Notes under the pieces: model-generated | Seen by the model: the letters and a program-made list of their open reading frames with translations, nothing else | Told to the model about the DNA's origin: nothing | Databases searched by the model: none | Position numbers and translations under genes: made by a program | Assembly (NCBI RefSeq): GCF_004137795.1 | Contig: NZ_NWTM01000001.1 | Coordinates: 2,779,229 to 2,843,228, forward strand | Direction: 5' to 3' | DNA from: Pectobacterium zantedeschiae | GTDB lineage: Bacteria > Pseudomonadota > Gammaproteobacteria > Enterobacterales > Enterobacteriaceae | Length of the DNA: 64,000 bases | Shown: in pieces, positions 42,064 through 63,086 of the stretch | Layout: every line of letters begins with the position of its first letter | Numbering within the stretch: position 1 is the first letter of the stretch

Positions 42064-42140
<77 letters not shown>

Positions 42141-42456
42141 TCCGAAAACGTGGCAAATACTACGCTGACAACTGCATAAATGCAAGTCATCTATAGGATT
42201 GGTACGAAGGCGATTCTTATACGCGGAATACGTTTCTTTGTCAACAAACCCGGGTTGCCAAGAGGCGGCAATCACGACACTGGGTATGCCACTTTTTATG
42301 CGTCGATCTTATACTGTCACGCTAGCCGCAAAGAGGCCAGCCATTAAGGAAAGACCCGGCAGCCCAAGGATGGCAAAAAGAGATGACGCAATAATGAGGA
42401 TTCCCTGATGCTTAAATCAAACAATAACTAAATCTAAATAATGTAATAAATAAAAT
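42141..42456. other. Gap between metY and the island regulator
   Basis: 316 bases. It must contain the metY promoter (minus strand). I see no convincing gene; one 69-codon open frame at 42199-42408 has no ribosome site and no recognisable protein. E. coli has yhbX and argG at this place. Confidence 0.5.
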
Positions 42457-43071
42457 TTATCTTCGTTCTTCTTCTAACAGCACGATCGCAGCCTGCGTTC
42501 TGTTACGCACATTAAGTCGTCTGAAAATCGACTCCAAATGTGATTTCACAGTTCCTGCACTAATGTTCAATGTCCGACTAATTTGTTTATTAGAGGCGCC
42601 GGATGCAATCAGTTGCAAAACTTCATGCTGTCTTTCACTGAGTTTACCTTTTACGCTGTTATCGACACTCCACCCTTCATAGACCACCCCATCATCTGGC
42701 AAGCAGACCATTCCCATAGAGACCGTTTTTAATGCTTGCGCAATAGAGTCGATAGGCGATGTTTTAAGAATGACACCCATAACATGGTGTTTCAGATAAT
42801 TATTCAAAACATTCTTTTCAATAACATCAACCATAATAATCACACTGACACCGACATATTTATCATGCAGAGTTTCAAGAAAAAAACCGTACTCTCCATT
42901 TTCTTTATCACAATTAATTAAAATAAAAGCGTTATTCATCCCCTCAAGGCAGGACCATACATCGTCAATTTCCTTTACGCCAACAACATTGACATCGTGA
43001 ATAAAATCATTCAGTCCAACAGATAAGCCTTGAATGAAAACAGGGGATTTATCAATAATAACAACATTCAC
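42457..43071 (-). CDS. Orphan LuxR-type regulator with degenerate receiver
   Basis: 204 residues from a GTG at 43071, placed 8 bases behind GGAGA; an ATG at 43110 is open but has no good site. The N-terminal receiver (about 1-115) begins MNVVIIDKSPVFIQG: the usual acidic pair is Asp-Lys, and the phosphate-accepting Asp in the DLxLLD strand appears as Asn (AFILINCD). The Lys of strand 5 (GVILKTSP) is kept. The C-terminal NarL/FixJ helix-turn-helix (about 140-204) is intact: LSERQHEVLQLIASGASNKQ and SAGTVKSHLESIFRRLN. No sensor kinase is near. I infer phosphorylation-independent control of the NRPS/PKS island. Confidence 0.85.
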   Translation of the reverse strand: MNVVIIDKSPVFIQGLSVGLNDFIHDVNVVGVKEIDDVWSCLEGMNNAFILINCDKENGEYGFFLETLHDKYVGVSVIIMVDVIEKNVLNNYLKHHVMGVILKTSPIDSIAQALKTVSMGMVCLPDDGVVYEGWSVDNSVKGKLSERQHEVLQLIASGASNKQISRTLNISAGTVKSHLESIFRRLNVRNRTQAAIVLLEEERR

Positions 43072-43110
43072 TGTGCAATCTCCATTTATCTTTATTTTAA
43101 AATGCCACAT

Positions 43111-43498
43111 TTAAAAATGCCTCTAAGAAGTTTTAGCTTATCTTGAAAGAATGATATCACGCCATTTGGCATATGCCGTTTACCTTATGGACGCTGCTAT
43201 GCTTATTCGCACATACTGAGATGATATTTTCAGATAAGAAACCATAGAGAAATACTATTATCAATGAAATAGCACCTTAGAATAAACCCTAATGGTGTAA
43301 TGATTTCATAAATGTATAAAAATTAGCACAATTGGTTTTTTAATTATGGATAAATGGCCTATGCCACATTACATGATATATCCAACACAATGACTGATAC
43401 GTTCCATACTCATTATCTGTTAACGTTTTCTCAAATTATCATTTATTTCCTCCAGAGTATTTACGTTTAGCTACTGGAAAATAAAATAAGGAGAGAGC
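43111..43498. promoter_or_regulatory. Divergent AT-rich control region at the island's left edge
   Basis: 388 bases between the regulator and the first DUF2589 gene, rich in A and T. It must hold both promoters. No gene or clear operator stands out. AAGGAGAGAGC before 43499 is a strong ribosome site. Confidence 0.45.
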
Positions 43499-44092
43499 AT
43501 GTCATTCAAGAATTGGCTAACGGGGAAAAATAAAAAAACAGATAATGCTAATAATACCCAAGAAGAAAACTCTCACTCCACGTCAAACGATCGCGTCACG
43601 ACATCAAAGGCAATGACATTAGCAGACATTGCTTGCGGCATGCAGCACGCCGCTACCGCCGCCAACCAATTTATTGCTCATCAATATCAACAAACTCTCG
43701 ATCCTTTTTTTGATCGTAGTGCTGATGGCGCGTTAACCCCAAAGACTATTGCAATTCAGCTTGATTCTCGACACCACATAGAACTACCGCTAGTTGCCCT
43801 TTCTACACCACGGGGATTGATGCTGGAAAAAATGAAAGTGCAAATGACAGTGAGAACCGATGCGGTCAGCAACGATGAAGTCACCTCGTCTTTGGACGGT
43901 TATAACATCAGTAATTTTCACGTCAGTATGTCACCTTCAGGAAAAAACAAAAACGGCAGAAATAGTCAACATATCGATATAGAAATGCAGTTCACGGCGA
44001 TTGAACCACCAGAAAGCATCATGCGGTTAATTGATGAATATACCAATCTCGTTATCCCCCGAATAATCCAAGAGGAAAAGAATAATGGCTAA
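43499..44092 (+). CDS. DUF2589 family protein A
   Basis: 197 residues. The N-terminal 35 residues are polar and low in complexity. The helix LADIACGMQHAATAANQFI (about 42-60) followed by KTIAIQLDSRHHIELPLVAL and LEKMKVQMTV is the DUF2589 pattern: an amphipathic Ala-rich helix, then beta strands. The family has no established function. A second member lies at 48585, and the two share the same helix-then-sheet order. It overlaps the lysozyme gene by 8 bases, so the two are translated together. Confidence 0.72.
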   Translation: MSFKNWLTGKNKKTDNANNTQEENSHSTSNDRVTTSKAMTLADIACGMQHAATAANQFIAHQYQQTLDPFFDRSADGALTPKTIAIQLDSRHHIELPLVALSTPRGLMLEKMKVQMTVRTDAVSNDEVTSSLDGYNISNFHVSMSPSGKNKNGRNSQHIDIEMQFTAIEPPESIMRLIDEYTNLVIPRIIQEEKNNG

Positions 44093-44546
44093 TATTCCAG
44101 AAACGATCAACGACGCAGGTCTTAATCTGATTAAGAGTTTTGAAGGATTAAGATTAACAAAGTATCTTGATACAGCTGGTAGGTGGACCATTGGATATGG
44201 GCACTTAATTCTATCAAATGAAAACTTTAATAATGGCATTACCACACAGGAAGCTGACTTGCTATTACGGCAAGACTTAAAGACGGCGGAAACTGGGGTT
44301 CAGCATTGTGTGAAAGTTGATCTCAATGGAAATCAATTTGGTGCGTTAACCTCATTTGCCTATAATCTGGGAGTAGAAAATCTAGAGGAGTCGACATTAT
44401 TACGCCTGCTTAATCAGGGCGACTATGACGCCGCTGCCGATCAATTCCCACGGTGGGATAAAGATGGTGAACAAATCGTGGAAGGACTCCTACACCGTAG
44501 GGAAGCAGAAAAAGCGCTGTTCCTAAAACCCATCGCAACAAACTAA
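44085..44546 (+). CDS. Phage-type lysozyme (GH24)
   Basis: 153 residues, about the size of T4-type/P22-type endolysins. The catalytic triad is visible: Glu in LIKSFEGLRLTKY (about residue 20), Asp in YLDTAGRWTIGYGH (about 29) and Thr in the same stretch (about 35). The C-terminal helix FAYNLGVENL and QFPRWDKDGEQIVEGLLHRR are family features. It cleaves peptidoglycan between MurNAc and GlcNAc. There is no signal peptide, so it would need a holin or lysis to reach the wall; a holin-like gene follows 54 bases later. No other phage genes are present. Confidence 0.9.
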   Translation: MANIPETINDAGLNLIKSFEGLRLTKYLDTAGRWTIGYGHLILSNENFNNGITTQEADLLLRQDLKTAETGVQHCVKVDLNGNQFGALTSFAYNLGVENLEESTLLRLLNQGDYDAAADQFPRWDKDGEQIVEGLLHRREAEKALFLKPIATN

Positions 44547-44600
44547 CATTTAAAAAGGCCTAGAACTCTACCTCATAGAAACCATCATCACGGATATATT

Positions 44601-45032
44601 ATGGATCTTTCAACATCCCCTATCATCTATGGCATTTTGCTCAGCGATATGATTGCATCAATTTCAGGACTATTCGGCGGACTCAGTATTTCTTTCTTTT
44701 GGAGACCGCAGAAATTGAACAATTATGACAAATTTGTCGGTGCATTAATCATTATTATCATCAGTATTTCAGCAGCATTCTCACTGGTAGGTATTATCGC
44801 AGAATTACTACACGTTAATATCAACAAAATGGAGAATGCAATAGGATTAGGTTATCTGATTGGTGCGATTAGCGTAGGACTCGTTACGCTGTTGGCTAAT
44901 TTCTTCAGCTACCGAGAGAATAACGATATTCTGGATGTCGCATCGGAAATAAAACAGGCGACAAAGGGCGTTCATTCGATCAATGAGGCTCGGGAAAAAA
45001 CGTCCGATGACAAAAACGCATCAGACAGCTGA
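44601..45032 (+). CDS. Holin-like three-helix membrane protein
   Basis: 143 residues with three membrane segments (about 8-30, 46-69 and 80-103) and a hydrophilic, charged C-terminal tail of about 40 residues. The size, topology and place directly after a lysozyme gene are like a class I holin, but I see no sequence family that proves it. It could also be an immunity or accessory membrane protein. It is last in the DUF2589-lysozyme operon and converges on the NRPS gene. Confidence 0.55.
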   Translation: MDLSTSPIIYGILLSDMIASISGLFGGLSISFFWRPQKLNNYDKFVGALIIIIISISAAFSLVGIIAELLHVNINKMENAIGLGYLIGAISVGLVTLLANFFSYRENNDILDVASEIKQATKGVHSINEAREKTSDDKNASDS

Positions 45033-45056
45033 TGCCCTATATTCAACAGTCCATAT

Positions 45057-45086
45057 GACAGGAAGGTGCATGACAGCCTTCCTGTC
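45057..45086 (+). terminator. Terminator after the holin-like gene
   Basis: A perfect 10-bp stem, GACAGGAAGG / CCTTCCTGTC, followed by CTCGTTTTCCCC. Confidence 0.75.
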
Positions 45087-45127
45087 CTCGTTTTCCCCTT
45101 TCCCACTTGCCCAGCCATCCTCAACGA

Positions 45128-45150
45128 AGGCGTCTCAGTATGGGACGCCT
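45128..45150. terminator. Second hairpin in the convergent gap
   Basis: AGGCGTC pairs with GACGCCT just outside the NRPS stop at 45163. Likely stops the minus-strand NRPS transcript. Confidence 0.55.
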
Positions 45151-45162
45151 CGTTTGCATGAG

Positions 45163-48100
45163 CTACAGGTTACTGCATAAGAGAACGGTATTTGGCTGCA
45201 CCATATCCATGAGAATTTGATGATACTGATGCGACAGCACGGCGATATCTTCCGCTTTAAACGCCGCTTGCTGATAATTAAAACACAGCGTCAGTGCCTC
45301 ATCGTCATAAACAGAGAGCGTTAAATCCAGCCGTGCCTGGCGATTAGCAATGTCCGCAATCCTATATTCAGCATCATTGAGCCTTACAGCTGGCGGCATC
45401 GCCGTCAGATAGTTAAAGCTGACTGGAAAACGTAGCCGATCAGACCATCCTTTGGCCCGGACATCAGTCATTAACACATCATAGGGCAACGTCTGATTGT
45501 CCAAAATGGCATGAACCTTATTCTGACTACGAGCTAAGAGCGTGTTGAAAGATTCCTGAGCAGGTGAATCATCATAGTAAGTCACCATATTAACGAAACA
45601 GCCTATCGTGGTGGCGTTGTCCGTCAACATACGGTTCGATACTGGAATACCGATGGGAACATGACGATAGTCTGTTGTTTTGAGCAACAGAGTAAAAGCA
45701 GTCAGCATACAGACAAACGGCGTCGTGCGATGCTGCTGGGCATAGTGTTTTATCGCCTGCGTTAGCGTATCAGACAAAATGCACCAATAGTTTTCTCCAT
45801 CCTGGCTTGCACTTAGCGGAAATGCTGTCGCATCAGCCCCCGCGGTCAGATAATCCTCCATCTTGTTCAACCAGAACTGGCGCTCTATCGGATAGCATTT
45901 ATCTTTGATACGCAATTGCTGTTGCCGGTAACGCAGATGACGCTCCCCATCGCCTATTTTATAGCTGCGGTCACCCGCGCTATAAGCACGGACATACTCA
46001 ACAAATTGACTAAAAAACAATCCGATAGCATCATGATCGAATACAGTATGATGCACACGCACCAGCAGAATATGCCGTTGCGTCGTCAGCGAAACCAGAT
46101 GAAAACAGATGAGCGGTGAATGTTCTATATCCATCTCTGGCGTATTGACCAGTTCCAGCAATTGTCGGTCGCTTAGCGTATTGGCAAACCCACCGGGAGG
46201 GAGCGCCGTCAGCCGTTCAATCTGAATAGCCTCGGTAGGATAATCGCCTTCAAGACACAGTATCCCGTCCAGATCAAAGCGGGTTCTCAGCACCGGATTA
46301 CCTTCCAGAATACGCCGGATACTCCACTCGACAGCAGACTCATCCAGTGTCCCATCTATCGTCAAACGAAAAGCCAACTGATAAACCGAAGGTTCTGGGC
46401 TGAGCTGATCCAACGTCAGAAAATAGCGCTGCTGTGATGATGGAGCACATTCCTCGGTATCCGTTTTACCCCCGTCAAATGTGGGCTCGTCGTCATTAAC
46501 ATAGTAAGGAACGATGAAAGCAAGCAAGTGGGGAGTCGCGTTGTTGAAAAATAGCGGGTAGTCGATTTCACTAAACAGCCGTTTGCGAATCAGTAGCCTG
46601 GCCTTCATCGCCTGGAGTGAATCTCCCCCCAGATCGAAAAAGTTATCATTGGCTCCGAGTTCACGAAAACCAAGCACTTCCTGCCAGATATCGATCAGTT
46701 CCTGCTCCAGCTCATTACCTGCGGTTTTAACAGGATATCCTAGCTCAGGGCGCTGCGGGCAAGGCGCCGGAAGTCGGCTAACATCCAGTTTTCCGTTAGG
46801 CAATTTCGGCAAGGTTTCCAGCATAATAAAATGGGCTGGATGCATCGCTCTCGGCAGCTTGTCTTGCAAGAATCGGCGCAGGTCGTTCGTAGCAAGCGAC
46901 GGATTGCGACTCACCAGATAGGCCACCAGGCGCTGGCGTCCGTTTTCCTGAATCGGCCGCACCAGTGCCGTATCGATATCAGCATGCTGACGCAAAACAA
47001 TCTCAACCTCTTCAGGTTCAATTCGAATACCATTAATCTTAATCTGCCGATCGAGACGCCCCAGATATACGATCTCCCCTTCCGGCGTCCTTTTCCCCAG
47101 ATCGCCGGTGCGATGTCCCCAATAGCGTTTATCGCCGCTGACGTGGGTAAAGAAACGCTGTTGAGTGAGTTCATCGCGGTTAATGTAACCACGGGCAACG
47201 CCTTCACCGATAGCGCAAATCTCCCCTTCTTCCCCTTCAGACACGGGGCGCAGACTCTCATCTACGATCAGAATTTCGCTGCCACGCAGTGCCTTACCGA
47301 GCGTCACACTTTTGCCTGGTTTTAATTCAGCGAACGAGCAGTTGGCCGTCGTTTCCGTCGGGCCATAGAGATTAAAAAGCCTGACATTAGGGATCTGCTC
47401 GAATGTGCGCTCTTTTAAATCAAAAGAGACGGGCTCGCCAGAGAGAAAGACCGTTTTGGGCAAAGCCCACGCGTGAGAAGACGATTTCTGGTAGCGCAGT
47501 AGCTCATCCCAAACGGTCGGTACGCAGTAAATGGCCCCCTCTGGATGCTGTTGATGCCAGCGTAATAAAACCTCGGGTTCATTCAAACTATCGGCAGGCA
47601 AAATAAATAGGGTATCGCCGCGTAATAAAGGCGCATAAAGCTGTGTCACGGCGGCGGCAAAACTGAGTGTCGATGTCAGAGGAAGCGTCGCACACGTCTC
47701 CGGCCACACATCTTCGTTAAACCAATTCAGGTAGTAGCTCAGGTTACGATGCTCAATGGCCACGCCTTTTGGCTTTCCTGTAGAACCGGAAGTGTAAAGA
47801 ATATAAGCGAGATCGTTTTCGGAAACAGGTGGTAATGTTGCAGCGGATTCAGCAGGATAATGGATATCCTCTAATACGAGCGTAGAGGAAAAAACCTTAT
47901 CGATAGCCGTTTTATTTAACATCGAACGTGTGGAAATAAGTAAAAATGCCGAAGAGTCATCAAGAATCTGAATGATTCTTTCTGACGGATGAAAATGCGA
48001 AAGAGGAACATAAGTATGTCCTGCTTTTAAAATAGCTAGCAAGACTACGGGCATCATCACACCGGGTTCCAGATAGACAGCAATTCTGCCACGTTTATTA

Positions 48101-48261
48101 TTCGGGTAGCGTGATAACAGATAATCAGCCAACAGGCGTGAGCGTGTTTCTAGTTGTTGATAACTCAACCTATCGCCATTAAATTCCACCGCAGTCTTAT
48201 TAGGACTTTTCAATGACCATTCAGAGATAATTTCAAAGACAGCTTTTCTATTCTTCATCAT
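45163..48261 (-). CDS. NRPS, A-T-C (probable starter protein)
   Basis: 1032 residues. An adenylation domain (1-500) has A3 YTSGSTGKPKG (156-166), A5 LYGPTETT, A8 GRLDRQIKINGIRIEPEEVE and the A10 Lys (about 491). A carrier domain follows with its Ser in DLGGDSLQ (548), then a condensation domain (about 608-1020) with HHTVFDH (737-743). In the A domain the Asp that normally holds the alpha-amino group is Ala (SFAAAVTQ, 200-207), so the substrate is probably not an ordinary alpha-amino acid. The order A-T-C, without an upstream C, suits a starter module that passes its unit to the free carrier protein at 50849. It is the only synthesis gene on the minus strand. GGAAGG lies before the double ATG (48261/48258). 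Confidence 0.92.
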   Translation of the reverse strand: MMKNRKAVFEIISEWSLKSPNKTAVEFNGDRLSYQQLETRSRLLADYLLSRYPNNKRGRIAVYLEPGVMMPVVLLAILKAGHTYVPLSHFHPSERIIQILDDSSAFLLISTRSMLNKTAIDKVFSSTLVLEDIHYPAESAATLPPVSENDLAYILYTSGSTGKPKGVAIEHRNLSYYLNWFNEDVWPETCATLPLTSTLSFAAAVTQLYAPLLRGDTLFILPADSLNEPEVLLRWHQQHPEGAIYCVPTVWDELLRYQKSSSHAWALPKTVFLSGEPVSFDLKERTFEQIPNVRLFNLYGPTETTANCSFAELKPGKSVTLGKALRGSEILIVDESLRPVSEGEEGEICAIGEGVARGYINRDELTQQRFFTHVSGDKRYWGHRTGDLGKRTPEGEIVYLGRLDRQIKINGIRIEPEEVEIVLRQHADIDTALVRPIQENGRQRLVAYLVSRNPSLATNDLRRFLQDKLPRAMHPAHFIMLETLPKLPNGKLDVSRLPAPCPQRPELGYPVKTAGNELEQELIDIWQEVLGFRELGANDNFFDLGGDSLQAMKARLLIRKRLFSEIDYPLFFNNATPHLLAFIVPYYVNDDEPTFDGGKTDTEECAPSSQQRYFLTLDQLSPEPSVYQLAFRLTIDGTLDESAVEWSIRRILEGNPVLRTRFDLDGILCLEGDYPTEAIQIERLTALPPGGFANTLSDRQLLELVNTPEMDIEHSPLICFHLVSLTTQRHILLVRVHHTVFDHDAIGLFFSQFVEYVRAYSAGDRSYKIGDGERHLRYRQQQLRIKDKCYPIERQFWLNKMEDYLTAGADATAFPLSASQDGENYWCILSDTLTQAIKHYAQQHRTTPFVCMLTAFTLLLKTTDYRHVPIGIPVSNRMLTDNATTIGCFVNMVTYYDDSPAQESFNTLLARSQNKVHAILDNQTLPYDVLMTDVRAKGWSDRLRFPVSFNYLTAMPPAVRLNDAEYRIADIANRQARLDLTLSVYDDEALTLCFNYQQAAFKAEDIAVLSHQYHQILMDMVQPNTVLLCSNL

Positions 48262-48584
48262 TTTCCTTCCATATTGTAAAAGGATGCTTTTTCGGGAATG
48301 GTTCTAACGCGACTTCCGGTATCTCACGCGGTGAAAAATTAATGCTGTAGAAATGAGAGCATGTAACGATAAGCTCGTCATGTTAGTACCAGAAAGAAAC
48401 ATGAAATAACGCGTATATCTGAGTATGGGTTTAACAAATAAAAGACATTATTGCCTATATACCAAAAGGACTATGCCAGAATGCGAAAGCCCACCTGCAC
48501 CCTGACGGGTATTTTTTTTCCTTCCCTTTGCTATTTTTTATTGACAGTACATCACACCCTATTCGCAGATAATTGGAGGTCCCG
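48262..48584. promoter_or_regulatory. Divergent promoter region of the synthesis genes
   Basis: About 320 bases between the minus-strand NRPS and the plus-strand synthesis operon. It must hold both promoters. One feature is visible: ACCC-TGAC-GGGT followed by A and eight T (48499-48519), a very short stem with a U tract, 65 bases before the next gene. It contains no gene that I can support. Confidence 0.5.
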
Positions 48585-49214
48585 ATGGATTCACAATTTA
48601 TCGGTTCGGTTATTAATGCGTTACCGCTGGAAAATATGATTAGCGGGCCATTACAGGCAATGATTAACGCACAGGTTCAAGCCAGCAAGGCCTATACGGA
48701 TTTTCTATTATCCGTATGTATTCAGAATAATAAAGCCGTCGCCATCCAATTCGATTACGACGAAACACTGATAGACGAAAGTGGTGTAGCAAAAGGCGCG
48801 GTGACAAAAACGATGCGCATACCGCTGATTGCCGCCATTACCCATCCGATTATTTCTATTGAAGAAGGAACAATCGATTTTGAGCTTGAAGTGACACAGA
48901 GTGAATCTTCATCCGATGACATCGGAGAAGACGGCAATTTGGCGGCTTCACTGGGATGGGGCGCTTTCAAGGTCAAAATGGCAGGCCGGGTGTCACACAA
49001 ATCGGCGCAGACCCGGACTACGGACACGCGAGCCAAATACAGCATCCACACGCAGGTAAAACGCCAACCCGCACCTGAGGCGCTCATGCGCGTCATCGAT
49101 TTTCTGACCGATGCGGCAACCAGACCCAGTATTCCCGCTGAAGAAAGTACGCCGCAGACAGCAGAAAGCGCCGCTCCACCAGCGTCTACAGAGCAACAAG
49201 AAACATCATCATAA
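48585..49214 (+). CDS. DUF2589 family protein B
   Basis: 209 residues from the ATG at 48585, placed behind GGAGG. The N-terminal helix MISGPLQAMINAQVQASKAY with TDFLLSV after it is the DUF2589 signature, followed by strands with MRIPLIAAITHPIISIEEG. The C-terminal 30 residues are Pro/Ala/Ser/Glu-rich and probably unstructured. Function unknown. It is the first gene of the main synthesis operon (118 bases before the free A domain). With the related protein at 43499, the island holds two divergent members, which suggests that they act together. Confidence 0.75.
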   Translation: MDSQFIGSVINALPLENMISGPLQAMINAQVQASKAYTDFLLSVCIQNNKAVAIQFDYDETLIDESGVAKGAVTKTMRIPLIAAITHPIISIEEGTIDFELEVTQSESSSDDIGEDGNLAASLGWGAFKVKMAGRVSHKSAQTRTTDTRAKYSIHTQVKRQPAPEALMRVIDFLTDAATRPSIPAEESTPQTAESAAPPASTEQQETSS

Positions 49215-49332
49215 TCAAAGAACACTATTCAGCGACAACATTACTCAGCGGCATAGTGTATGCGTGCCGTATCTGCATAACGCGTAAAAGGATGCCTGGC
49301 GTGATTTCCTGGCATCACCAGAGGATCAGATC

Positions 49333-50838: not shown

Positions 50839-50848
50839 TGGTGAAAAA

Positions 50849-51121
50849 ATGTCAAATGACAAAGCAATATTACCTTCAGAGATAGAGAAAAATATTATTT
50901 CTATCTGGCGGAGCGTACTTAATAATCCCAAAGTTTCTATTCAAGAAAATTTTTTCGATGCAGGAGGGAACTCCCTGCTGATGTCCAAAGTTTATCGAGA
51001 AATAAAAAACAAAATAGAGTCACCTATCTCTATTGTTGATTTATTCCAATACCCAACGGTACAGATGCTAAGCAAACGCATTAGCGAAATACACGCTGGG
51101 AAATCAAGTAGCAAGAAGTAA
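50849..51121 (+). CDS. Free-standing peptidyl carrier protein
   Basis: 90 residues, one carrier domain. The phosphopantetheine Ser is in FFDAGGNSLLMSKV (about residue 48). The helix-1 pattern IEKNIISIWRSVLNNPK and the C-terminal VDLFQYPTVQMLSKRI are typical of PCPs. Its tail is Lys/Ser-rich. It lies 10 bases after the free A domain, its likely loader. As part of the assembly line it probably takes the starter unit through the C domain of the A-T-C protein and hands the product to the ketosynthase at 51629. Confidence 0.92.
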   Translation: MSNDKAILPSEIEKNIISIWRSVLNNPKVSIQENFFDAGGNSLLMSKVYREIKNKIESPISIVDLFQYPTVQMLSKRISEIHAGKSSSKK

Positions 51122-51219: not shown

Positions 51220-51492
51220 ATGTCTGCAAATCAATTAAGTGCTATTTATGCAACAAAATCAAAAGTGGCTGCTGCTATTCATATTGTAGAAAGCCATAAA
51301 GCCTCATCCAAACCCACTCACTACCATGGTGTTGGCCGAGCGCTTCTGCCAAACGCGCTAAAAAAGTGGGGTAAAAAACCGGCACCAACCATGCCTGCAT
51401 ACATCAAGGCATTATATCAGCACCCTTCTGCACTTTACCTGAAAGATATTCTTAAACAGGTAAAAGCAGAGCTTGCAGCTAGCAAAAACTAA
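51220..51492 (+). CDS. Hypothetical 90-residue basic protein
   Basis: I recognise no family. It is Lys/Ala-rich (strongly basic) with several His, including THYHG near residue 35. There are no membrane segments and no signal peptide; the C-terminal third (YLKDILKQVKAELAASKN) is likely helical. It lies between the carrier protein and the PKS inside the synthesis operon, and is followed by two hairpins. Options are an accessory protein of the assembly line, a resistance factor, or a precursor peptide. The codon use looks like its neighbours. A purine-rich AGGTGGT stretch sits before the ATG. Confidence 0.7.
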   Translation: MSANQLSAIYATKSKVAAAIHIVESHKASSKPTHYHGVGRALLPNALKKWGKKPAPTMPAYIKALYQHPSALYLKDILKQVKAELAASKN

Positions 51493-51524
51493 ATCACGCT
51501 AATTTAGCTGTCCCTTCTATATTC

Positions 51525-54600: not shown

Positions 54601-57130
54601 TGTCCGATTACTGAAAAGCCTGACGGAACAAGGGCTACGCCCATCGCGTATCCTGTATTTATGGAACCTGATGGCGGAAGAACAGGTACTACCGCTGAAG
54701 CACACCTATCTCTCCTCACCGCTGAATACGTTCTACCCAGCCCTCTATCTTCAGCAGGCACTGGTGAACGAGAATTTGCTGGACGATCTGCATGTGATCT
54801 TCGCCACCAGCAACACGTTCAGTGTAATGGGTGAGTACGTTGCTTCACCGGAAAATGCGCTGCTGGTAGGGCCCTCTCGTGTGTTCTATCACGAATATCC
54901 CGAAGTACAGTGCCATCTGGTGGATCTCGATCTCAAACAAAACGCCGAACAACTTGATGAACTTGCCCACAGTCTGATTGCGGAAAGCCAAATCACAACA
55001 CACGGCAATCTGGTGGCTTACCGCGGAAATCAGCGCTGGGAAGAAAGTTATCAGGCCGTGTATTTGGAAGATGACGCGATAGGCGAGCCTGCTGAGATAA
55101 AAAATGACGGCGTTTACCTCATTACTGGTGGTCTTGGCGGTCTGGGAATACTGGTCGCCAATCATCTGTGTGAAACAAGCCATGCAACGATAATTCTGAC
55201 TTATCGTTCCGCTCTACCGCCGCGTGAGGAATGGCATAATTGGATCCAGCAGCACTCTGTCGATGATCCTACCAGTGAAAAGCTGGCAAGCATTTTACGT
55301 CTGGAAGCCCATGGCAACCCGGTGCATTTAGCACAGGTGGATGTCTGTGACTATCAGGGAATGAGCACCATGCTATCCGCATTCCCACAGATCGATGGAG
55401 TATTCCATACCGCAGGCGTGCCCGGCGGTGGCATCATTCCTCTGAAAAGCGATGCCGATTGCGCCAGCGTGCTTGATCCTAAGGTCGCAGGTTCGCTCAT
55501 TCTGGATGAGCTTCTGCAAGACAAGCAGCCTGACTTCTTTATTCTTTTCTCCTCCATTACCGCCATTGTGGGTGATGAAGCCCGCATTGACTACTGCTCT
55601 GGCAACGCATTTATGGATGCTTTTGCCCATTATCGCAACCAGCATCGGCGCGGACGTTCAGTATCGATAAATTGGGGACAATGGGGCGATGTTGGCATGG
55701 CGGCCCGTTGGAACAAACAGTTAGAAGAGAAGAAAAACAACAAAGCGCCTGTCGCTGAGGTAGTCACAGGGGATTTACTCACGCTCGTTGAACGTGAAAA
55801 TATGCGGGAAAGCTATCAGGTCAATCTCACCGTAAACGACTGGGTTATCGATGAGCATCGCCTTTCTCAGCAGCCCTCACTGGTGGGAACGACGATCTTA
55901 TCGCTGCTACATGAGTTCATGACATGCTTCAAGCCTCAGGAAAATCTGCAGGTCAAAAACCTGATGATGACCAAACCAATTATCTATACCGATGCCTGGC
56001 CTCGGTTTATGAGACTGTTCGTCACGCAGGATGGAAAAGGCTATCAATTTAGCCTCAAGAGCCGGGGTCTACTTGAACTGACATGGCAAGAGCATGCATT
56101 AGGGGCAATAGGTCACAGCGTTCAGGTGTCTCACATCGTGCCGTCATCGCTCGATGCCATCAAACAGCGCTGCACGACCAAACTCCCCTATTCGCCTTTT
56201 GTTACCGAGTTGGGAAATGCCAGTACTGGCGGTAATTTCCTCTCTTTCAGTCAACGCTGGAATAATCATAGTGAGATCTTCCAGGGGGATAACGAGTGGC
56301 TGATACACAAAGTGTTGGGGAACGAATATCAGCACGATTTGACGCGTTATCCGTACCATCCTGCGATCATCGACTCAACAGCGATATCCTGCATTATCCT
56401 GATTACCACGAATAATTACTTACCGATTAGCTATGGGAAACTCGTCTTCCTGTCTCCATTGGAAAAAGAGTGCTACGCCCACGTCAAACTCAAACAGGCA
56501 TATCAGCCGCAAGACAATTCCATCGTCATGGATATTACTTTCCTTTCGTCGACAGGTACTCCACTGTTGATACTGGAAAACTATACGCTGCTGAAAATTA
56601 CGTCAGACAATCAGGTTGTTACCGCAGAGAAGGTGTCAACGTCGGTCCCCGCAGCGGTCAAAGTCAATCTGGCAGATAAAGACATTATGTTGCCTGAAGG
56701 GATTGACGCCATGAAGCGCCAGTTTGCTCACCTGGAATTTGAGCAAATCGTGATCGTCACCAGCGATCTGGAACAGCTCATTTATGAGACGATTCCAGAA
56801 CAGGAAACACCTGAGTCTATCTTGCAGGATAATGAAGCGACGGAAGGATATTCCAGACCTGCGCTCTCTGTCGATTATGTCGCGCCAGAAAACGACATTG
56901 AAAAGGAAATTATCAAAGTCTGGCAGTCCATTCTGGGGATCTCAGGTATCGGTGTTAACGATAGCTTTACTGAGCTGGGCGGAAACTCGCTGCTGGCAGT
57001 GCAGGTCGTTTCTACGGTTTCGGGCATCTTTGAAATCGATATCCGCGTTGATCTATTTTACCAGAACCAGACAGTGAAAGGGTTAGCCATGCTGATTCTC
57101 ACTGAACTGGAATCCTTACTTCAAGACTAA
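51629..57130 (+). CDS. Type I polyketide synthase, KS-AT-KR-(DH-like)-ACP
   Basis: 1833 residues. The ketosynthase (8-435) has all three catalytic residues: Cys181 in VQTACSTAM, His317 in VEAHGTA and His357 in NIGHTDA. The acyltransferase (about 528-830) has Ser625 in GHSVGE and HAFH (722-725), the malonyl-type motif. The ketoreductase (about 1155-1350) has GGLGGLG and the Ser/Tyr/Asn set in FSSITAIVGDEARIDYCSGN. A region at about 1400-1640 looks like a dehydratase double hotdog: His in VIDEHRLSQQP and YHPAIIDST, but the Gly and Pro of HxxxGxxxxP are missing. The carrier Ser is in ELGGNSLLA (about 1788). It extends an aminoacyl chain by one malonate unit and reduces it; dehydration is doubtful. 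Confidence 0.93.
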   Translation: MKEQEQFRDKDIAIVGMSARFPGAEDTAIFWQNLLDGVETISTFSEEELRESGIEEEMIASPNYIRRRGILGNAQHFDANFFDITPRDAEIMDPQHRVFLECCWHAFEDAGYVPATYPGKVGIFGGTGTAWHLSKVNAHPEVQKYASGASVVTNNDKDYVTTRVSYKLNLKGPSVNVQTACSTAMVAVVMGMNSLLNGESDLIVAGGVSVDTPERRGYSYMQGGMESADGRCYAFDSRANGTVFSRGAGVVLLKRLNDAVRDGDHIYAVLKGGAVNNDGNLKAGFTAPSIHGQIAVAKQAIANAELDPATINFVEAHGTATALGDPIEFTSLTQTFQEYTDKTQYCRLGSVKTNIGHTDAASGMASLIKASMALETGKLPASLHFESPNPNIEFETSPFIMNTELSELEPSETPHRALVNSFGVGGTNACVILEAAPQLEAGDVHDDSLLVLPFSAKSRTALDDMKRRLRDYLSAHDDANLADIAYTLQVGRQKFSHSTAIIGKDRDSLLAKLEQPSFVVSQQGKNRKSVVFMFPGQGNQYVNMARELYDTYDVFRASMDQCCEYLEPILDVNLTSIIFQDSDDIAASRINETQFTQPSLFVVEYSLAKLWMSWGIQPDVMIGHSVGEYVAACLSGVFSLEDALKAVALRGKMVQALPAGDMLAVLLDEESLRAKLHGSKLEIAAVNYPGLCVIAGASNDIARFQQQLEDSNIFCKHLDTSHAFHSHMMEPMLPAFKKVIDSIKLHAPQIPFVSTVNGAWVTEELAKNSDYWVRHVRNPVLFSHAFKTLMDEEHHDFVFLEVGPGRSLESSAKQHFSAEDGALIYASLPTAKDVALSGEHLLSTLGALWASGVDVPWHLHHPEQHRRRIPLPGYPFERKRFALPALSSASNDAQSELSVKAKKRKQADIGDWFYMPTWKKTIPAKYMTGKRVEAENTCWLILTDPQGIAERAKQILEKEGHNVFFVTPGAQYQESPSEGRYTLNASSRADYVRLLKSLTEQGLRPSRILYLWNLMAEEQVLPLKHTYLSSPLNTFYPALYLQQALVNENLLDDLHVIFATSNTFSVMGEYVASPENALLVGPSRVFYHEYPEVQCHLVDLDLKQNAEQLDELAHSLIAESQITTHGNLVAYRGNQRWEESYQAVYLEDDAIGEPAEIKNDGVYLITGGLGGLGILVANHLCETSHATIILTYRSALPPREEWHNWIQQHSVDDPTSEKLASILRLEAHGNPVHLAQVDVCDYQGMSTMLSAFPQIDGVFHTAGVPGGGIIPLKSDADCASVLDPKVAGSLILDELLQDKQPDFFILFSSITAIVGDEARIDYCSGNAFMDAFAHYRNQHRRGRSVSINWGQWGDVGMAARWNKQLEEKKNNKAPVAEVVTGDLLTLVERENMRESYQVNLTVNDWVIDEHRLSQQPSLVGTTILSLLHEFMTCFKPQENLQVKNLMMTKPIIYTDAWPRFMRLFVTQDGKGYQFSLKSRGLLELTWQEHALGAIGHSVQVSHIVPSSLDAIKQRCTTKLPYSPFVTELGNASTGGNFLSFSQRWNNHSEIFQGDNEWLIHKVLGNEYQHDLTRYPYHPAIIDSTAISCIILITTNNYLPISYGKLVFLSPLEKECYAHVKLKQAYQPQDNSIVMDITFLSSTGTPLLILENYTLLKITSDNQVVTAEKVSTSVPAAVKVNLADKDIMLPEGIDAMKRQFAHLEFEQIVIVTSDLEQLIYETIPEQETPESILQDNEATEGYSRPALSVDYVAPENDIEKEIIKVWQSILGISGIGVNDSFTELGGNSLLAVQVVSTVSGIFEIDIRVDLFYQNQTVKGLAMLILTELESLLQD

Positions 57131-57135
57131 ACACA

Positions 57136-57169
57136 CGAAGACCTTCTACAGTCATGTAGAAGGTCTTCG
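57136..57169 (+). terminator. 15-bp perfect hairpin between PKS and NRPS genes
   Basis: CGAAGACCTTCTACA pairs with TGTAGAAGGTCTTCG around GTCA, 5 bases after the PKS stop and 40 before the next start. There is no U tract, so a processing or stabilising element is as likely as termination. Confidence 0.6.
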
Positions 57170-57208
57170 TCATTGTGAAAACAGAAAGTCACAACACGAG
57201 ACTCGACA

Positions 57209-60200
57209 ATGACACAGAATCCTACCGGAAAACTCACTTCACTTAGCATTGATGAACTTAAAAAGTTGGCAAAAGAAAAAAAGAAAGCGGGTGGTACGCA
57301 AGCAGGTAAAACTATTTCCCCACAGACTTCGCCAGGCAGAGTGCATTTCCCCATGACCAGTGCTCAGAAGAGTATTTGGATGCTTTCTCAGTATCTCGAC
57401 AATAATCAGGTCTATAATAATCCCTATGTTCTCGCGAGTAGAATTGAACATGAAATGGAGCCGCATCGCATCCAGCAAACACTTAACTATATAATGAAGC
57501 AACATGACATTCTACGAACGACATTCCGTTTGGTCGACAATGAAGTATGCCAATGTATTGCTGAAGAAATGTCCTTTCCTTTTCATTTTGACGATATCTC
57601 CACATTCAGCGAAGAAGATATTGAGAAATACATCTCGAATATGTCAAAAGAACAAGGGAAGATTATTTTTGATCTGGAAAATGGTCCTTTAGTCTATCTC
57701 CATATGGTCAAAACACGCCAGTACGACTATGTCTTATTTCTAACATTTCACCACATTATTTCCGATGGATGGACGCTAAATCTGTTCATCAAAATGTTAA
57801 TAGAGAACTACTTCCGCCTGTTGCAGGGAGATACACTGCACATCGAAAAAACGCTCCAGTTTTCCGATTACGCCCTGGCAGAAAATCGATGGTATTCCCA
57901 AGGTGAATACCAGACCGGGCTTGCCTATTGGGCTAAGAAGCTGGATGGCATATCAGGGCAACTAGATTTGGCAACAGACTACCCTCGCCCTGCCAAAATG
58001 AGCACCACTGGCGGGATCGTCATTGATTATTTTGACGAAGCTTTCTGTCAGCGCTTAAAAGATTGTGCAACACAGCATCGGGCAACACAATTTCATATCA
58101 TTCTCACGGCCTATAAAATCCTGCTACATAAATACAGCGGACAGCAGGAAATTATCATTGGCGTCCCTTTTGCTAATCGAAATTTACCAACCACGCAAAA
58201 TATGATGGGGTTATTTATGAACACCCTACCATTACGCTTTGATATTATTTCCGACACTAGCATTACCAATCTCATTGATGTTGCTCGCCTCGAATGTGAA
58301 GAAACCATGAAGTATCAGGATGTGCCATTCAATTATATTCTGGATGAAATCACCTATACTCGTAACCCCCAAATAAACCCCATATTTCAGGCAATATTGA
58401 CGTATCAGGTATTCCCTCATTTTCACAATCGAAACAGCGGAATAAAATATAAACCGCTAAAAGTCGATTATGGCAGTGCCAAAGTAGACCTGAATTTATG
58501 GATAGAAGAAGATAGAGATAATGGCGGTTTGCTGTTTACCATGAACTACAGTAATGCATTATTCTCCGGAGCCACCGTCGAGCGCATGCTAAGCAATCTG
58601 CGTACTATCATCGAAACAATAATTACCCAACCGCAGCTAGCCGTTCGAGATATCTCACTGTTAAGCGACGAAGAACGCCGTGCGGCAATCGCACAATGCC
58701 ACCCGACCGCTGACACCCCACCATCAGCCATTCATACGCAGTTTGAAGAACAAGTACGGCAAAGACCTGATGCCATCGCGGTTCGCTGTGAAGGGCGTTC
58801 ATTCACCTATGCCCAGCTCAACGAACGGGCAAACCAGCTGGCTCATCAACTACAGCAAGACGGGCTCGCGCACGGTGAACGTGTCGCGCTCTTTATGCCT
58901 AAAAGCGAGTATTACGTCGTTGCGATTCTGGCTGTGTTAAAAGCAGGCGGATGCTATGTACCAATCGATATGGATCTTCCCACACAGCAGGTTGAATTCA
59001 TATTGCAAAACGCTGACGCCCGTTGCGTCATCATTGATGAACAGACGCCCGGAGAAATGCTCCCCAGCATCTACGTAAGACAAAATCGCAACGTGATGCC
59101 GGTAAGCAATCCATCGCAGCCACAAACAGTTACGGATGGCCCTGCCTACATCATTTATACCTCGGGCAGTACCGGCAAACCTAAGGGCGTTCAGGTCAAA
59201 CACTCACAGCTAAGCCACTACTGTCAGGCCATTCGTCCAGTGCTCAACCTGCCGCCCAATGCCCACTACGGCATGTTCTCATCCTTCACAACCGATTTGG
59301 CACACACGGTATTATTTCCCGCGCTAATCCATCAAGGCCAGCTAGATGTGATCAGCACGGAATTGCTCCGCTCACCACAGGAACTATTTGCTTATCTGAC
59401 GCACTACCCCGTAGATTGCATAAAGATCACTCCGTCCCATTTAGCGACGTTACTGACCTCACCGCAGGCAGAAGCATTATTACCTCGGCAGTTGCTGGTT
59501 ATCGGCGGAGAACGCGTTCCTCTGTCACTCATCAAGCGCATACGTGAGTTCCAAACGTCTTGCCGTATTCTCAATCATTATGGCCCAACTGAGTGTACCG
59601 TCGGCGTCACAACCTATCCGGTACCGAACGACCTTAGCACTCTTTCAGGTGACTACCTGCCCATCGGTAAGCCCCTGTCCGATAGCCATGTCCTGCTGCT
59701 CGATCCTTATCACCAGTTAGTCCCTGCCGGGTTACCGGGCGAAATTTATCTGGGTGGTTCACATGTGGCAGAAGGATACATCGGCCTGCCGGAGCAAAAT
59801 CAGGCACGCTTTATCCCCCATCCTTACCTTGAGGGCGAGCGGCTTTATCGCAGCGGTGACAAAGGCCGCTTCTTGCCTGATGGCAACCTGGAATTTATGG
59901 GGCGTTTGGATCGTCAGGTTAAAGTGCGCGGCTACCGTGTTGAATTGACAGAAATCGAACAGGCATTACAACAGGTCGCTAATGCGACTCACGTTGCCAT
60001 TAAACAAAACACGCTGCCCCATGGCGAAGCCGTCTTAACCGCCTATGTATGCGGTATTACCGAACCCCATCAGGCCGCAGTAAAGGCAGCACTACAAAAG
60101 AAATTGCCGGACTATATGCATCCCGAACGCTGGGTGTGGCTAGAAGCGATGCCATTAACTGCCAGCGGTAAGATAAACTATGCCGCGTTACCCCTACCCT

Positions 60201-61285
60201 CAGCGGAAAAACGGATATCGCTTCATACCCCGGAAAATCAGTGCGAACACGACCTGCACGAGATTTATCGCGATATCTTACAAAACGATACCATTGATAC
60301 GCAGGAGAGCTTTTTCACGCTTGGCGGAAACTCTCTCAGCGCATTAAAACTCATCCTGAGCGTTAATCAGCACTTCGGAACCTCTCTGTCTTTGGGGCTA
60401 CTGTTCGAAAACAGCAGCATTGCTCAGTTGGCACGCGCGATTGAAGAAAAAGGAACCCAGACTCAAGTTGCAAGGGTAACAATCAATCGTGGCCAGCCTG
60501 AAGATAATCCCACCTTGCTTCTGATCCACCCTGCGGGGGGGAATGTCCTGTGCTATTCCGCACTGGCGCGTGAGTTGGGCGAGAGCTATCCGGTCTACGG
60601 TATTCAGGTGCCCGATTTCAGCGTTAACCAGCCTTATAACGCCGATATCAAAGCGCTTGCCGCTTTTTATCTGTCACAAGCCGGTGACGTTATTCATCAC
60701 TCTCGTCTGGTTCTGGGAGGGTGGTCTCTCGGTGCGACCATCGCTTTTGAAATGGCACAGCAACTCGCGGAAAAAGGTATAACCCCCACCGTGTTAGTAC
60801 TGGATCAGCCTGCGCCAGAGATCAATATCGACGACTCGGCAAACATGAATGAGGCTGAACGTCTGGCGTTTTTTGCACATAAAGTGGCCTTATTTACCGG
60901 TGCATCTTTCAATCTTTCAGAACAGTCGCTTTCAAACATGAGTGATGAGCAGCGCACAGCGCGTTTTCTGGAAGAGTTTAAGCGCGTGGGGCTGGTGCCT
61001 GATGAGATTGGACCGCAAGAATTTCAAGATTTTCTCAAAATTTTACAATCACATATTTACGCAGCGGAGACCTACCGCAGCGCACCTTACCCTGGGGACT
61101 TACTGGTCGTTGAAGCAGAAGATATTTTACCGGGTCGTACCCGCCTGCCCGAATCAGGGTTAGGGTGGCATCGTCTGACGGAAGGATATCTGACTGTACT
61201 AACAGCTTCTGGCGATCATATCTCCATGATGAATACACCGCATATTTCGCGCATAGCAGAGAAGTTAAAGCACGTATTGCGGTAA
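57209..61285 (+). CDS. NRPS terminal module C-A-T-TE, aspartate-type
   Basis: 1358 residues. A short basic N-terminal helix (SIDELKKLAKEKKKAGG) may be a docking element. The condensation domain (about 45-480) has HHIISDG (181-187), typical of LCL-type domains. The adenylation domain (about 505-1000) has A3 YTSGSTGKPKG (650-660) and the specificity residues D696 L697 T700 K739 V764 G766 H790 V798 G799, which read as the known Asp code (DLTKVGHIGK type). The carrier Ser is 1042 in LGGNSLS. The thioesterase (about 1100-1355) has Ser1173 in GWSLG, Asp1199 and a His in SGDHISMM. It adds Asp and releases the product by hydrolysis or cyclisation. Confidence 0.93.
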   Translation: MTQNPTGKLTSLSIDELKKLAKEKKKAGGTQAGKTISPQTSPGRVHFPMTSAQKSIWMLSQYLDNNQVYNNPYVLASRIEHEMEPHRIQQTLNYIMKQHDILRTTFRLVDNEVCQCIAEEMSFPFHFDDISTFSEEDIEKYISNMSKEQGKIIFDLENGPLVYLHMVKTRQYDYVLFLTFHHIISDGWTLNLFIKMLIENYFRLLQGDTLHIEKTLQFSDYALAENRWYSQGEYQTGLAYWAKKLDGISGQLDLATDYPRPAKMSTTGGIVIDYFDEAFCQRLKDCATQHRATQFHIILTAYKILLHKYSGQQEIIIGVPFANRNLPTTQNMMGLFMNTLPLRFDIISDTSITNLIDVARLECEETMKYQDVPFNYILDEITYTRNPQINPIFQAILTYQVFPHFHNRNSGIKYKPLKVDYGSAKVDLNLWIEEDRDNGGLLFTMNYSNALFSGATVERMLSNLRTIIETIITQPQLAVRDISLLSDEERRAAIAQCHPTADTPPSAIHTQFEEQVRQRPDAIAVRCEGRSFTYAQLNERANQLAHQLQQDGLAHGERVALFMPKSEYYVVAILAVLKAGGCYVPIDMDLPTQQVEFILQNADARCVIIDEQTPGEMLPSIYVRQNRNVMPVSNPSQPQTVTDGPAYIIYTSGSTGKPKGVQVKHSQLSHYCQAIRPVLNLPPNAHYGMFSSFTTDLAHTVLFPALIHQGQLDVISTELLRSPQELFAYLTHYPVDCIKITPSHLATLLTSPQAEALLPRQLLVIGGERVPLSLIKRIREFQTSCRILNHYGPTECTVGVTTYPVPNDLSTLSGDYLPIGKPLSDSHVLLLDPYHQLVPAGLPGEIYLGGSHVAEGYIGLPEQNQARFIPHPYLEGERLYRSGDKGRFLPDGNLEFMGRLDRQVKVRGYRVELTEIEQALQQVANATHVAIKQNTLPHGEAVLTAYVCGITEPHQAAVKAALQKKLPDYMHPERWVWLEAMPLTASGKINYAALPLPSAEKRISLHTPENQCEHDLHEIYRDILQNDTIDTQESFFTLGGNSLSALKLILSVNQHFGTSLSLGLLFENSSIAQLARAIEEKGTQTQVARVTINRGQPEDNPTLLLIHPAGGNVLCYSALARELGESYPVYGIQVPDFSVNQPYNADIKALAAFYLSQAGDVIHHSRLVLGGWSLGATIAFEMAQQLAEKGITPTVLVLDQPAPEINIDDSANMNEAERLAFFAHKVALFTGASFNLSEQSLSNMSDEQRTARFLEEFKRVGLVPDEIGPQEFQDFLKILQSHIYAAETYRSAPYPGDLLVVEAEDILPGRTRLPESGLGWHRLTEGYLTVLTASGDHISMMNTPHISRIAEKLKHVLR

Positions 61286-61338
61286 CACATCCGCCAAATA
61301 TCTAACGGCGGCTTTATCACATAAGCGAGGAGAAGCAA

Positions 61339-61965
61339 ATGAGCGATACACCGTCGTTAACCGTTTGGCAATATCTGGTATCACGCGATGCCATCCTAAC
61401 CATTATCTTACCGATTATTATTTACAATATCGCTTTCTGGCAATGGGGGGCGGGCGCTGCGCTATTAATTACAGCTATCTATTCTGGTGTCCTGCAATAT
61501 ATCAGTCGTTGGAAAGGCTACCTGCCGATTATCGCCCTTATTTTGGTCTCAGGGCTAAGCCATTATCTTTATTTGGAAGGGTATATGCTGTTTGATATCA
61601 AGCAGGAAAGCGTCTTCTTATCCGTCAGCGGCGCAATGTCCACCGTGATTATCTTCAGCATTTACAGCATGCTCGGACGTCCTGTCATACAGACACTAGC
61701 GGAACAGGCTACACCAAGACTAAAAACACTTCCTAACTATGGCACCCCACGGTACACCAAAATATGGAACGAAGTCTCATTGGTGTGGATTTTGGCCTAT
61801 CTGATAAAAGCTATCGTCATTTATACCCTTTCACACCGACCCGGATTACCAATGGATACCCTCGTCCTGATCAGCGGCTGGCCTCTAACATTGTTGCTCG
61901 TAATTTTCAGCTTCAAATGGCCAAAATATCGCTGGTCTTCACATGCGCGCGATAACGCGGCCTGA
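61339..61965 (+). CDS. Integral membrane protein, VC0807-like
   Basis: 208 residues with about six membrane segments. The VSRDAILTIILPIIIYNIAF start and the middle helices resemble the VC0807 family, which has no known function. It starts 54 bases after the terminal NRPS, behind CGAGGAGAAG, so it is in the same operon. It is not a known drug-efflux type (no MFS, MATE or ABC pattern). It could serve in export or self-protection; this is inferred from position only. Confidence 0.65.
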   Translation: MSDTPSLTVWQYLVSRDAILTIILPIIIYNIAFWQWGAGAALLITAIYSGVLQYISRWKGYLPIIALILVSGLSHYLYLEGYMLFDIKQESVFLSVSGAMSTVIIFSIYSMLGRPVIQTLAEQATPRLKTLPNYGTPRYTKIWNEVSLVWILAYLIKAIVIYTLSHRPGLPMDTLVLISGWPLTLLLVIFSFKWPKYRWSSHARDNAA

Positions 61966-62012
61966 ACCAGCCATCAAGCCATGCGTAATGAATGATGAAT
62001 ATAGGGAATATT

Positions 62013-63029
62013 ATGAACCCGTTAACAAATAAACTAATCGTACTCGCTCACCATCCTGATGGCCCAGCCCAGTTAGAACACTTCAGGCTTGATGAACGCC
62101 AAATCGATGCGTTACAACCCGGCGAATACATAGTTGAAAATAAGTGGCTATCTATTGACCAATACACACGCGCTCGACTCAGCAAAAATACAGCCTTTGT
62201 TAGCCCTATCAAGCCCGGAGAGGTTATTCAAGGGGAAACAATAGGTAATATCATCGCAACGAAAAACCCAAAATTTCAGGTTGGAGACTGCGTATTCACC
62301 TTTTCTGGCTGGCAGAAATACTATATCGGTACGCCTCAGGATTTTATTACTCATCGCGTATTACCGACGACCTTATCGCCTTCTATTTTTTTGGGAGCTG
62401 CAGGCACACCGGGACGTTCCGCTTATTTTGGCCTGAATAAAATAGCCAAACCCAAAGCGGGGGAAACACTGGTGGTATCCGCCGCCTCCGGAGGCGTGGG
62501 ATCCGCTGTCGGTCAGTTAGGTAAACAGGCCGGATGCCGAGTTGTCGGCCTAGCGGGCAGTGAAGAGAAATGTCGCTATGTCGTTGAGACATTAGGCTTT
62601 GATGCCTGCATTAATTATAAAGAAGATGATTTAAATCAGGCCTTGCGGGCCGCTTGTCCTAACGGGATAGATATCTATTTTGAAAATGTTGGTGGTAGAG
62701 TTTCGCTCTTTATTGCCAGATTGCTTAACGAAGGCGCCAGAGTTCCTGTTTGTGGCAGCGCGGCACTCTATAATCAAGGGAGTGATGTTGATGCTTCAAG
62801 CCCAGTGGCATTTTTCTCTTCTTTGCCCGAGGCACCTCTGAGTCGCTTTTTTCTCGTAACTGAATGGTTCAAAGACTATGCGGAAGCCGACATTTGGCTA
62901 CTCGATGCCGTAGAGAAAGGACGATTGAAATATCGGGAGAACATTATTGAGGGAATTGAGAACGCGCCCCAAGCCTTTATCGATTTGTTAGACAGTAAAC
63001 ACTTTGGCAAGCAACTGGTACGTTTGTAA
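62013..63029 (+). CDS. Zinc-free MDR family NADPH oxidoreductase
   Basis: 338 residues of the CurA/YncB/PTGR branch of the medium-chain reductases. The start at 62013 has TAGGGA upstream; another ATG lies at 61992. WLSIDQYTRARLS near residue 45 and the NADPH fold VVSAASGGVGSAVGQLGKQA (about 152-171) with YFENVGG (about 222) are typical. No zinc Cys/His ligands are seen. Members reduce enones and quinones, so it could reduce a double bond of the island's product; it could also be a general stress enzyme. It is the last gene of the synthesis operon and ends at a terminator. Confidence 0.85.
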   Translation: MNPLTNKLIVLAHHPDGPAQLEHFRLDERQIDALQPGEYIVENKWLSIDQYTRARLSKNTAFVSPIKPGEVIQGETIGNIIATKNPKFQVGDCVFTFSGWQKYYIGTPQDFITHRVLPTTLSPSIFLGAAGTPGRSAYFGLNKIAKPKAGETLVVSAASGGVGSAVGQLGKQAGCRVVGLAGSEEKCRYVVETLGFDACINYKEDDLNQALRAACPNGIDIYFENVGGRVSLFIARLLNEGARVPVCGSAALYNQGSDVDASSPVAFFSSLPEAPLSRFFLVTEWFKDYAEADIWLLDAVEKGRLKYRENIIEGIENAPQAFIDLLDSKHFGKQLVRL

Positions 63030-63052
63030 GACTGATACCAGAAATTAAAGAC

Positions 63053-63086
63053 AAAAAAATAGACGTCCATTGACGTCTATTTTTTA
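63053..63086. terminator. Bidirectional terminator between the island and leuU
   Basis: AAAAAATAGACGTC pairs with GACGTCTATTTTTT, a 14-bp stem with a 4-base loop and A and T flanks. It stops the island operon and leuU. Confidence 0.88.

Follow-up and report, generated by a model that had tools for sequence, protein, structure and literature searches.

A candidate lytic release cassette with exchangeable cargo accompanies a conserved hybrid NRPS/PKS assembly line in Pectobacterium zantedeschiae

Here we examine a stretch of 64,000 nucleotides from Pectobacterium zantedeschiae (assembly GCF_004137795.1, contig NZ_NWTM01000001.1; hereafter the window), in which an island between the tRNA genes metY and leuU combines a hybrid nonribosomal peptide synthetase/polyketide synthase (NRPS/PKS) assembly line with a five-gene cassette encoding a LuxR-type regulator, two DUF2589 proteins (a and b), a phage-type lysozyme and a holin-like membrane protein (Table 1). 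We see an even chance that this cassette is a cargo-independent, probably lytic means of release, coupled to the assembly line and similar to type 10 secretion. What is new is the candidate release cassette, whose cargo can be exchanged; taken by itself, the assembly line is a conserved orphan of a type already known. The wider question is how several Gram-negative bacteria release antibiotics without a dedicated exporter. If the proposal is true, natural products would join large protein toxins as cargo of controlled self-lysis, DUF2589 would gain a role, and the cassette could serve as a marker for spotting unnoticed toxic cargos in genomes.

Central to this reading is the distribution of the cassette relative to that of a major facilitator superfamily (MFS) transporter and an HlyD protein, for which 42 loci were compared in one run, with relatives called at E 1e-5. 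In 12/12 NRPS/PKS loci from Pectobacterium (11) and Brenneria alni (whose contig begins after luxR), the cassette is present and the MFS/HlyD pair absent, whereas in the nine other loci (two from Xenorhabdus, four from Shewanella, one from Vibrio, and those of genomes G057 and G184) the cassette is absent and the MFS gene present without exception, accompanied by HlyD in eight (the contig of the ninth, L052, ends first). Across the window's genome, searched in full for the MFS only, the best relative reaches no more than 27% identity, compared to 61-80% among the eight other dedicated transporters. Alternatively, export may fall to the VC0807-like membrane protein, leaving the cassette a regulatory or stress-related role, which would count against lytic release and which we regard as unlikely. 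Relatives of this protein occur in all 12 cassette loci and in eight of the nine exporter-type loci (L052 again ending first); in the latter it coexists with MFS and HlyD, so that it is not obviously their replacement, and its weak family match carries no assigned transport role.

Cassette and NRPS genes are interleaved, the order from metY to leuU being luxR (minus strand), DUF2589a, lysozyme, holin-like, A-T-C (minus strand), DUF2589b, free A, carrier, orf90, PKS, C-A-T-TE, VC0807-like and NADPH-dependent reductase. Since all genes from DUF2589b to the reductase share a strand and are separated by some 10 to 140 bases, DUF2589b may be the lead gene of the biosynthetic operon. The lysozyme has Glu, Asp and Thr positions, which we take to be catalytic, that are common to all 11 sequences aligned. 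In the LuxR proteins the DNA-binding half is kept across nine aligned cassettes and in Burkholderia stagnalis, and by our reading of the alignment the usual phospho-acceptor position of the receiver half is not Asp in the metY-leuU copies. The motif GGMMTATGYCA has three matches in the 64 kb (0.22 expected), all within two island promoter regions, and is also present in both promoter regions of two related genomes, G203 and G207. Together these features would fit a mechanism in which the regulator turns on the two DUF2589 proteins, the cytoplasmic endolysin and the holin-like protein; in expressing cells the holin would give the lysozyme access to the wall, and opening of the cell would free the product, a task for which relatives use the MFS/HlyD exporter. 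Phage-like cell-opening genes that relatives combine with very unlike products thus hint that part of the population may lyse to set its product free.

Table 1. Features of the metY-leuU island and its borders, by position in the window.
Feature	Position	Strand	Basis
tRNA-Met (metY), left border	42064..42140	-	tRNA gene call
LuxR/NarL-type regulator	42457..43110	-	PF00196 E 3.4e-21; orthologues begin at later codon (204 aa)
Motif GGMMTATGYCA, copy 1 (GGCATATGCC, palindrome)	43167..43177	-	motif scan
Motif GGMMTATGYCA, copy 2	43356..43366	+	motif scan
DUF2589 protein a	43499..44092	+	PF11655 E 3.4e-14
Phage-type lysozyme (endolysin), no hydrophobic segment found	44085..44546	+	PF00959 E 2.2e-45; PHROG endolysin E 6.6e-57; hydropathy
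Holin-like membrane protein of 143 aa with three hydrophobic segments	44601..45032	+	hydropathy; no family match
NRPS A-T-C, first unit	45163..48261	-	Pfam domains and motif alignment
Motif GGMMTATGYCA, copy 3, in divergent A-T-C/DUF2589b promoter region	48468..48478	+	motif scan
DUF2589 protein b	48585..49214	+	PF11655 E 6.5e-22; alternative start TTG 48573
Free adenylation domain	49333..50838	+	Pfam
Free peptidyl carrier	50849..51121	+	Pfam
orf90, small protein without family match	51220..51492	+	two divergent allele classes
PKS KS-AT-KR-DH-like-ACP	51629..57130	+	Pfam and motif alignment
16-bp perfect inverted repeat in short gap between PKS and C-A-T-TE	57135..57170	.	repeat search
NRPS C-A-T-TE, Asp pocket	57209..61285	+	Pfam and motif alignment
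VC0807-like membrane protein	61339..61965	+	weak family match below cut-off; five hydrophobic segments (hydropathy)
NADPH-dependent double-bond reductase, candidate trans enoyl reductase	61992..63029	+	family matches
tRNA-Leu(gag) (leuU), right border	63090..63176	-	tRNA gene call

The cassette was also found beside other genes, and at one locus its cargo has changed. In the Pectobacterium genomes G203 and G207, cassette genes 74-93% identical to those of the window occupy the same metY-leuU site and are followed by genes for SagB (149 bits, cut-off 78) and SagD (291, cut-off 219). These thiazole/oxazole-modified microcin (TOMM) loci also code for a SagC-type protein (46.5 against a cut-off of 36.9 for the leader-binding model, the SagC model itself scoring sub-threshold), a TPR protein, a C70/C39-like peptidase and a precursor-like open reading frame (ORF) whose streptolysin S family match falls below cut-off; none of the transporter relatives tested was found in them. 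Two further cassettes, in G220 and G532, run luxR, DUF2589 b and a, lysozyme and holin-like, with an RNase gene between the last two. Both RNases carry a signal-like N-terminal stretch, that of G220 being binase-like (E 1.4e-8) and that of G532 barnase-like (E 5.9e-11, identified by PDB sequence search only); the G220 cassette lies between genes that we take to be sucCD-like and cydA-like. In B. stagnalis, luxR, DUF2589 b and a and lysozyme are followed by a relative of polyhydroxybutyrate (PHB) depolymerases (E 2e-47), likewise identified by PDB sequence search only; neither it nor the G532 RNase has a Pfam match at E 0.01. A 182-residue protein of G220 with a sub-threshold Pfam RNase match (20.8 bits, cut-off 27) and nothing in PDB was not relied on.

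A different explanation is that the LuxR-DUF2589-lysozyme-holin genes are an independent hotspot island beside which the NRPS/PKS and TOMM genes happened to land, with export left to general efflux pumps. The metY-leuU site is indeed a hotspot: among 25 Pectobacterium genomes, the window's own included, other DNA stands beside metY in three (G200, G208 and G210; leuU was not reached in the stretch fetched), a transposase-like ORF in one (G219) and the remnant of another PKS in one (G218). Moreover, the G220 and G532 cassettes lie away from any NRPS/PKS, and the G+C of the cassette (0.391 over 42457-45032) is unlike that of the NRPS genes, the whole island having 0.473 and the DNA left of metY 0.513. 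Chance neighbourhood is harder to square with the placing of DUF2589b, which is flanked by the A-T-C gene and the rest of the cluster and has the genes from free A to reductase downstream of it on one strand, and with an order and content kept in 12/12 loci from which the MFS/HlyD pair is absent. We consider this explanation possible, if on the improbable side.

Several observations weigh against a lytic release cassette coupled to the assembly line. The 12-versus-9 pattern may amount to one evolutionary change, given that the cassette loci all belong to a single bacterial family. Pfam, NCBIfam and PHROG-type scans assign the holin-like protein to no holin family, no spanin family was found among cassette ORFs, and a crude search for lipobox motifs in five cassettes turned up just two short candidates, both unconvincing and outside the window. 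No relative of the holin-like protein was found at the B. stagnalis cassette, and DUF2589 pairs occur without a detectable relative of lysozyme or holin-like protein in G234, G369 and two Vibrio plasmids. The promoter motif was selected after the promoter alignments had been viewed, and no exact copy was found in P. peruviense, B. alni (its first region being off the contig), G220 or G532. The structure model of DUF2589b is too poor to use (pLDDT 54.7, pTM 0.35). Finally, all five cassette genes are intact in G213, whose A and PKS genes are split, and four of five are intact in Pectobacterium sp. PL152; an intact cassette beside a split A and PKS may be kept for its own sake, unless the splits are sequencing errors.

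The DUF2589 proteins, for which the literature searched yielded a single paper, might alternatively be effectors that the lysozyme and holin serve instead of the metabolite: every cassette seen holds such a pair, and pairs are found alone as well. We found no signal or toxin domain in them, and the stand-alone cassettes adjoin separate RNases or a depolymerase with signal-like N-terminal stretches, which makes such a role very improbable. On the two Vibrio plasmids (L135 and L136) the DUF2589 pairs lie near genes annotated as TcdA/TcdB-domain proteins, and on one of them a peptidase-domain ABC transporter gene and an HlyD gene adjoin the pair. A prophage or tailocin remnant was set aside: in a scan of six proteins of the island (both DUF2589 proteins, the lysozyme, the holin-like protein, orf90 and the VC0807-like protein), a phage family below E 0.05 came up for the lysozyme alone.

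Lysis cassettes of type 10 secretion offer the closest comparison for the release that we propose. As far as the portions of these papers available to us go, such cassettes are described in Serratia marcescens and, as YenLC, in Yersinia entomophaga (PMC10847048), secretion proceeds by lysis (PMC9125672, PMC10847048), and cargo is released by lysis of some cells (PMC10847048). The likeness lies in a regulator accompanied by an endolysin that belongs to no prophage and by a holin-like protein, in some cases within a toxin operon (PMC10847048). The window's endolysin was recognised by Pfam, PHROG and alignment, a membrane protein with three hydrophobic segments adjoins it, and a shared promoter motif may point to co-regulation with the cargo. 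The differences are that the window's cassette has a GH24 lysozyme and a DUF2589 pair with no spanins found, and that its cargo would include NRPS/PKS and TOMM products in place of large proteins. With no Rz/Rz1 spanin pair, we do not file the cassette as a type 10 system, only as one that may work like it. A bolder version, which we hold to be doubtful, is that it is a portable lytic module (LuxR-type regulator, DUF2589 pair, GH24 endolysin and holin-like protein) distinct from type 10 secretion, which would release products as unrelated as a hybrid peptide-polyketide, a TOMM peptide, a secreted RNase and a depolymerase, with DUF2589 proteins acting as spanins and clusters losing their exporter upon joining it.

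The assembly line itself is almost certainly a complete hybrid NRPS/PKS, with adenylation (A), carrier (T), condensation (C), ketosynthase (KS), acyltransferase (AT), ketoreductase (KR) and thioesterase (TE) domains all present with their catalytic motifs, and motifs of the carrier serines, KS, AT, KR and TE found in the orthologues aligned. A preliminary description of this DNA had listed A-T-C, free A, free carrier, KS-AT-KR-DH-like-ACP and C-A-T-TE, which Pfam domains bear out; its inventory was right for these genes and omitted luxR, both DUF2589 genes, lysozyme, holin-like, orf90, VC0807-like and the reductase. It had further read four building units with Asp last. Pocket residues, taken through motif anchors that we assume to follow GrsA numbering and without a predictor, support this in that the C-A-T-TE pocket, D-L-T-K-V-G-H-V-G-K, is presumably an Asp code. 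The free A pocket (D-V-W-Q-F-G-L-I-F-K) resembles what we take to be Gly/Ser-type codes, and no single residue is assigned to it. Pockets for amino acids normally hold the alpha-amine by Asp; in the A-T-C pocket (A-A-T-Y-F-S-L-A-N-K) that position is Ala, as in 9/9 orthologues aligned, which refines the four-unit reading: the first unit is probably something other than an ordinary alpha-amino acid.

From these assignments, the A-T-C protein would load this starter and couple it with a small residue on the free A and carrier, which represent a split module found as a single fused protein (595-611 aa) in Xenorhabdus and Shewanella. The PKS would then add one malonate, to be ketoreduced, perhaps dehydrated and perhaps reduced by the trans reductase, before the C-A-T-TE protein adds Asp and frees the product. 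The AT stretch is HAFH, presumably malonyl-type, in 10/12 PKS orthologues and HGFH in two from Xenorhabdus; in the DH-like region, His and Asp are conserved in 12/12, but the usual Gln/His is missing. The nearest relatives of the reductase are NADPH double-bond reductases, and as its gene was not found ahead of HlyD in two Xenorhabdus loci, the trans reduction step would not be universal. Two phosphopantetheinyl-transferase-type matches were found in the genome, both outside the window.

That the cluster was unrecognised, as first described, holds insofar as no product match was found with the tools used, NCBIfam NRPS/PKS equivalog models staying below their cut-offs among the best 25 of up to 108 matches per protein; the assembly line nevertheless recurs in five genera (Pectobacterium, Brenneria, Xenorhabdus, Shewanella and Vibrio), over which it is conserved with no product found here. 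Orthologous clusters in Xenorhabdus, Shewanella and Vibrio sp. THAF64 (L054, L060, L050-L052, L059 and L112) share its A-T-C, A, carrier, PKS, C-A-T-TE and VC0807 order and its pocket residues, and differ in having their own MFS and HlyD genes and no cassette. The literature searched gave no named product or description of the cluster, which is no proof that it is undescribed since subscription papers lie mostly outside that search. In the parts available to us, biosynthetic clusters of Xenorhabdus and Photorhabdus are treated in PMC9177418, a Pectobacterium genus survey lists cfa, a syringomycin-like NRPS, carotovoricin and others without this cluster among them (PMC6963963), and NRPS/PKS arrays are called relatively conserved in taro Pectobacterium (PMC11231085). 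The solanimycin cluster of Dickeya solani, likewise a hybrid NRPS/PKS of a soft-rot bacterium, is a trans-AT PKS whose SolF/G/H differ in domain order (PMC9765074, available part); this type was rejected, as the window's AT lies inside the PKS and the SolG model scored 297-420 bits against a cut-off of 2200.

The placing of an accessory island between metY and leuU, also proposed earlier, was confirmed by the tRNA positions and by empty sites in four relatives (G211, G214, G215 and G220), to which homology stops on the left at about 42247-42273 and restarts on the right at 62943. In each empty site it restarts within the reductase gene's final 87 bases, as would be seen if an island formerly present had been deleted. 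The survey of relatives suggested at the outset found the complete gene set in 11/25 genomes (G000, G198, G199, G201, G202, G204, G205, G206, G209, G212 and G216; in G209 a transposase-like ORF is inserted ahead of orf90), and the island is therefore not unique to the window. Split island genes occur in two genomes (G213 and G217, the latter being PL152), island remnants in one (G151), and the cassette with TOMM genes in two (G203, G207); the B. alni island also adjoins a tRNA-Leu(gag). The PKS had a match in 15/25, with 13 taken as orthologues (11 full length, two split) and those of G203 and G218 dropped as partial and 38-44% identical.

A wider contig scan with exact window peptides, which favours close relatives, gave 15 loci, among which L058 (Verrucomicrobiia, 44%) was judged to be a different cluster and removed, L055 (B. 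salicis), with a contig that begins only beyond the cassette position, was not counted in the exporter comparison, and one of three Vibrio THAF records was examined. At class level, among 369 genomes, the PKS had four distant matches at 38-43% and DUF2589b was found only in the window's genome. An order-wide search for the TOMM protein SagD gave 0/247, which shows little, as by its listing the set does not include G203 and G207.

The small protein orf90 is only 49-53% identical to its orthologues in five relatives, where neighbouring genes reach about 80-98%, and that of G213 is of the window's allele type (89%). Elsewhere in the window, three tandem tRNA-Leu(cag) genes lie at 6795-7205. Outside it, about 120 kb away in the same genome (C3:2954609-2974302), a second NRPS cluster holds several adenylation-domain frames and a phosphopantetheinyl-transferase match.

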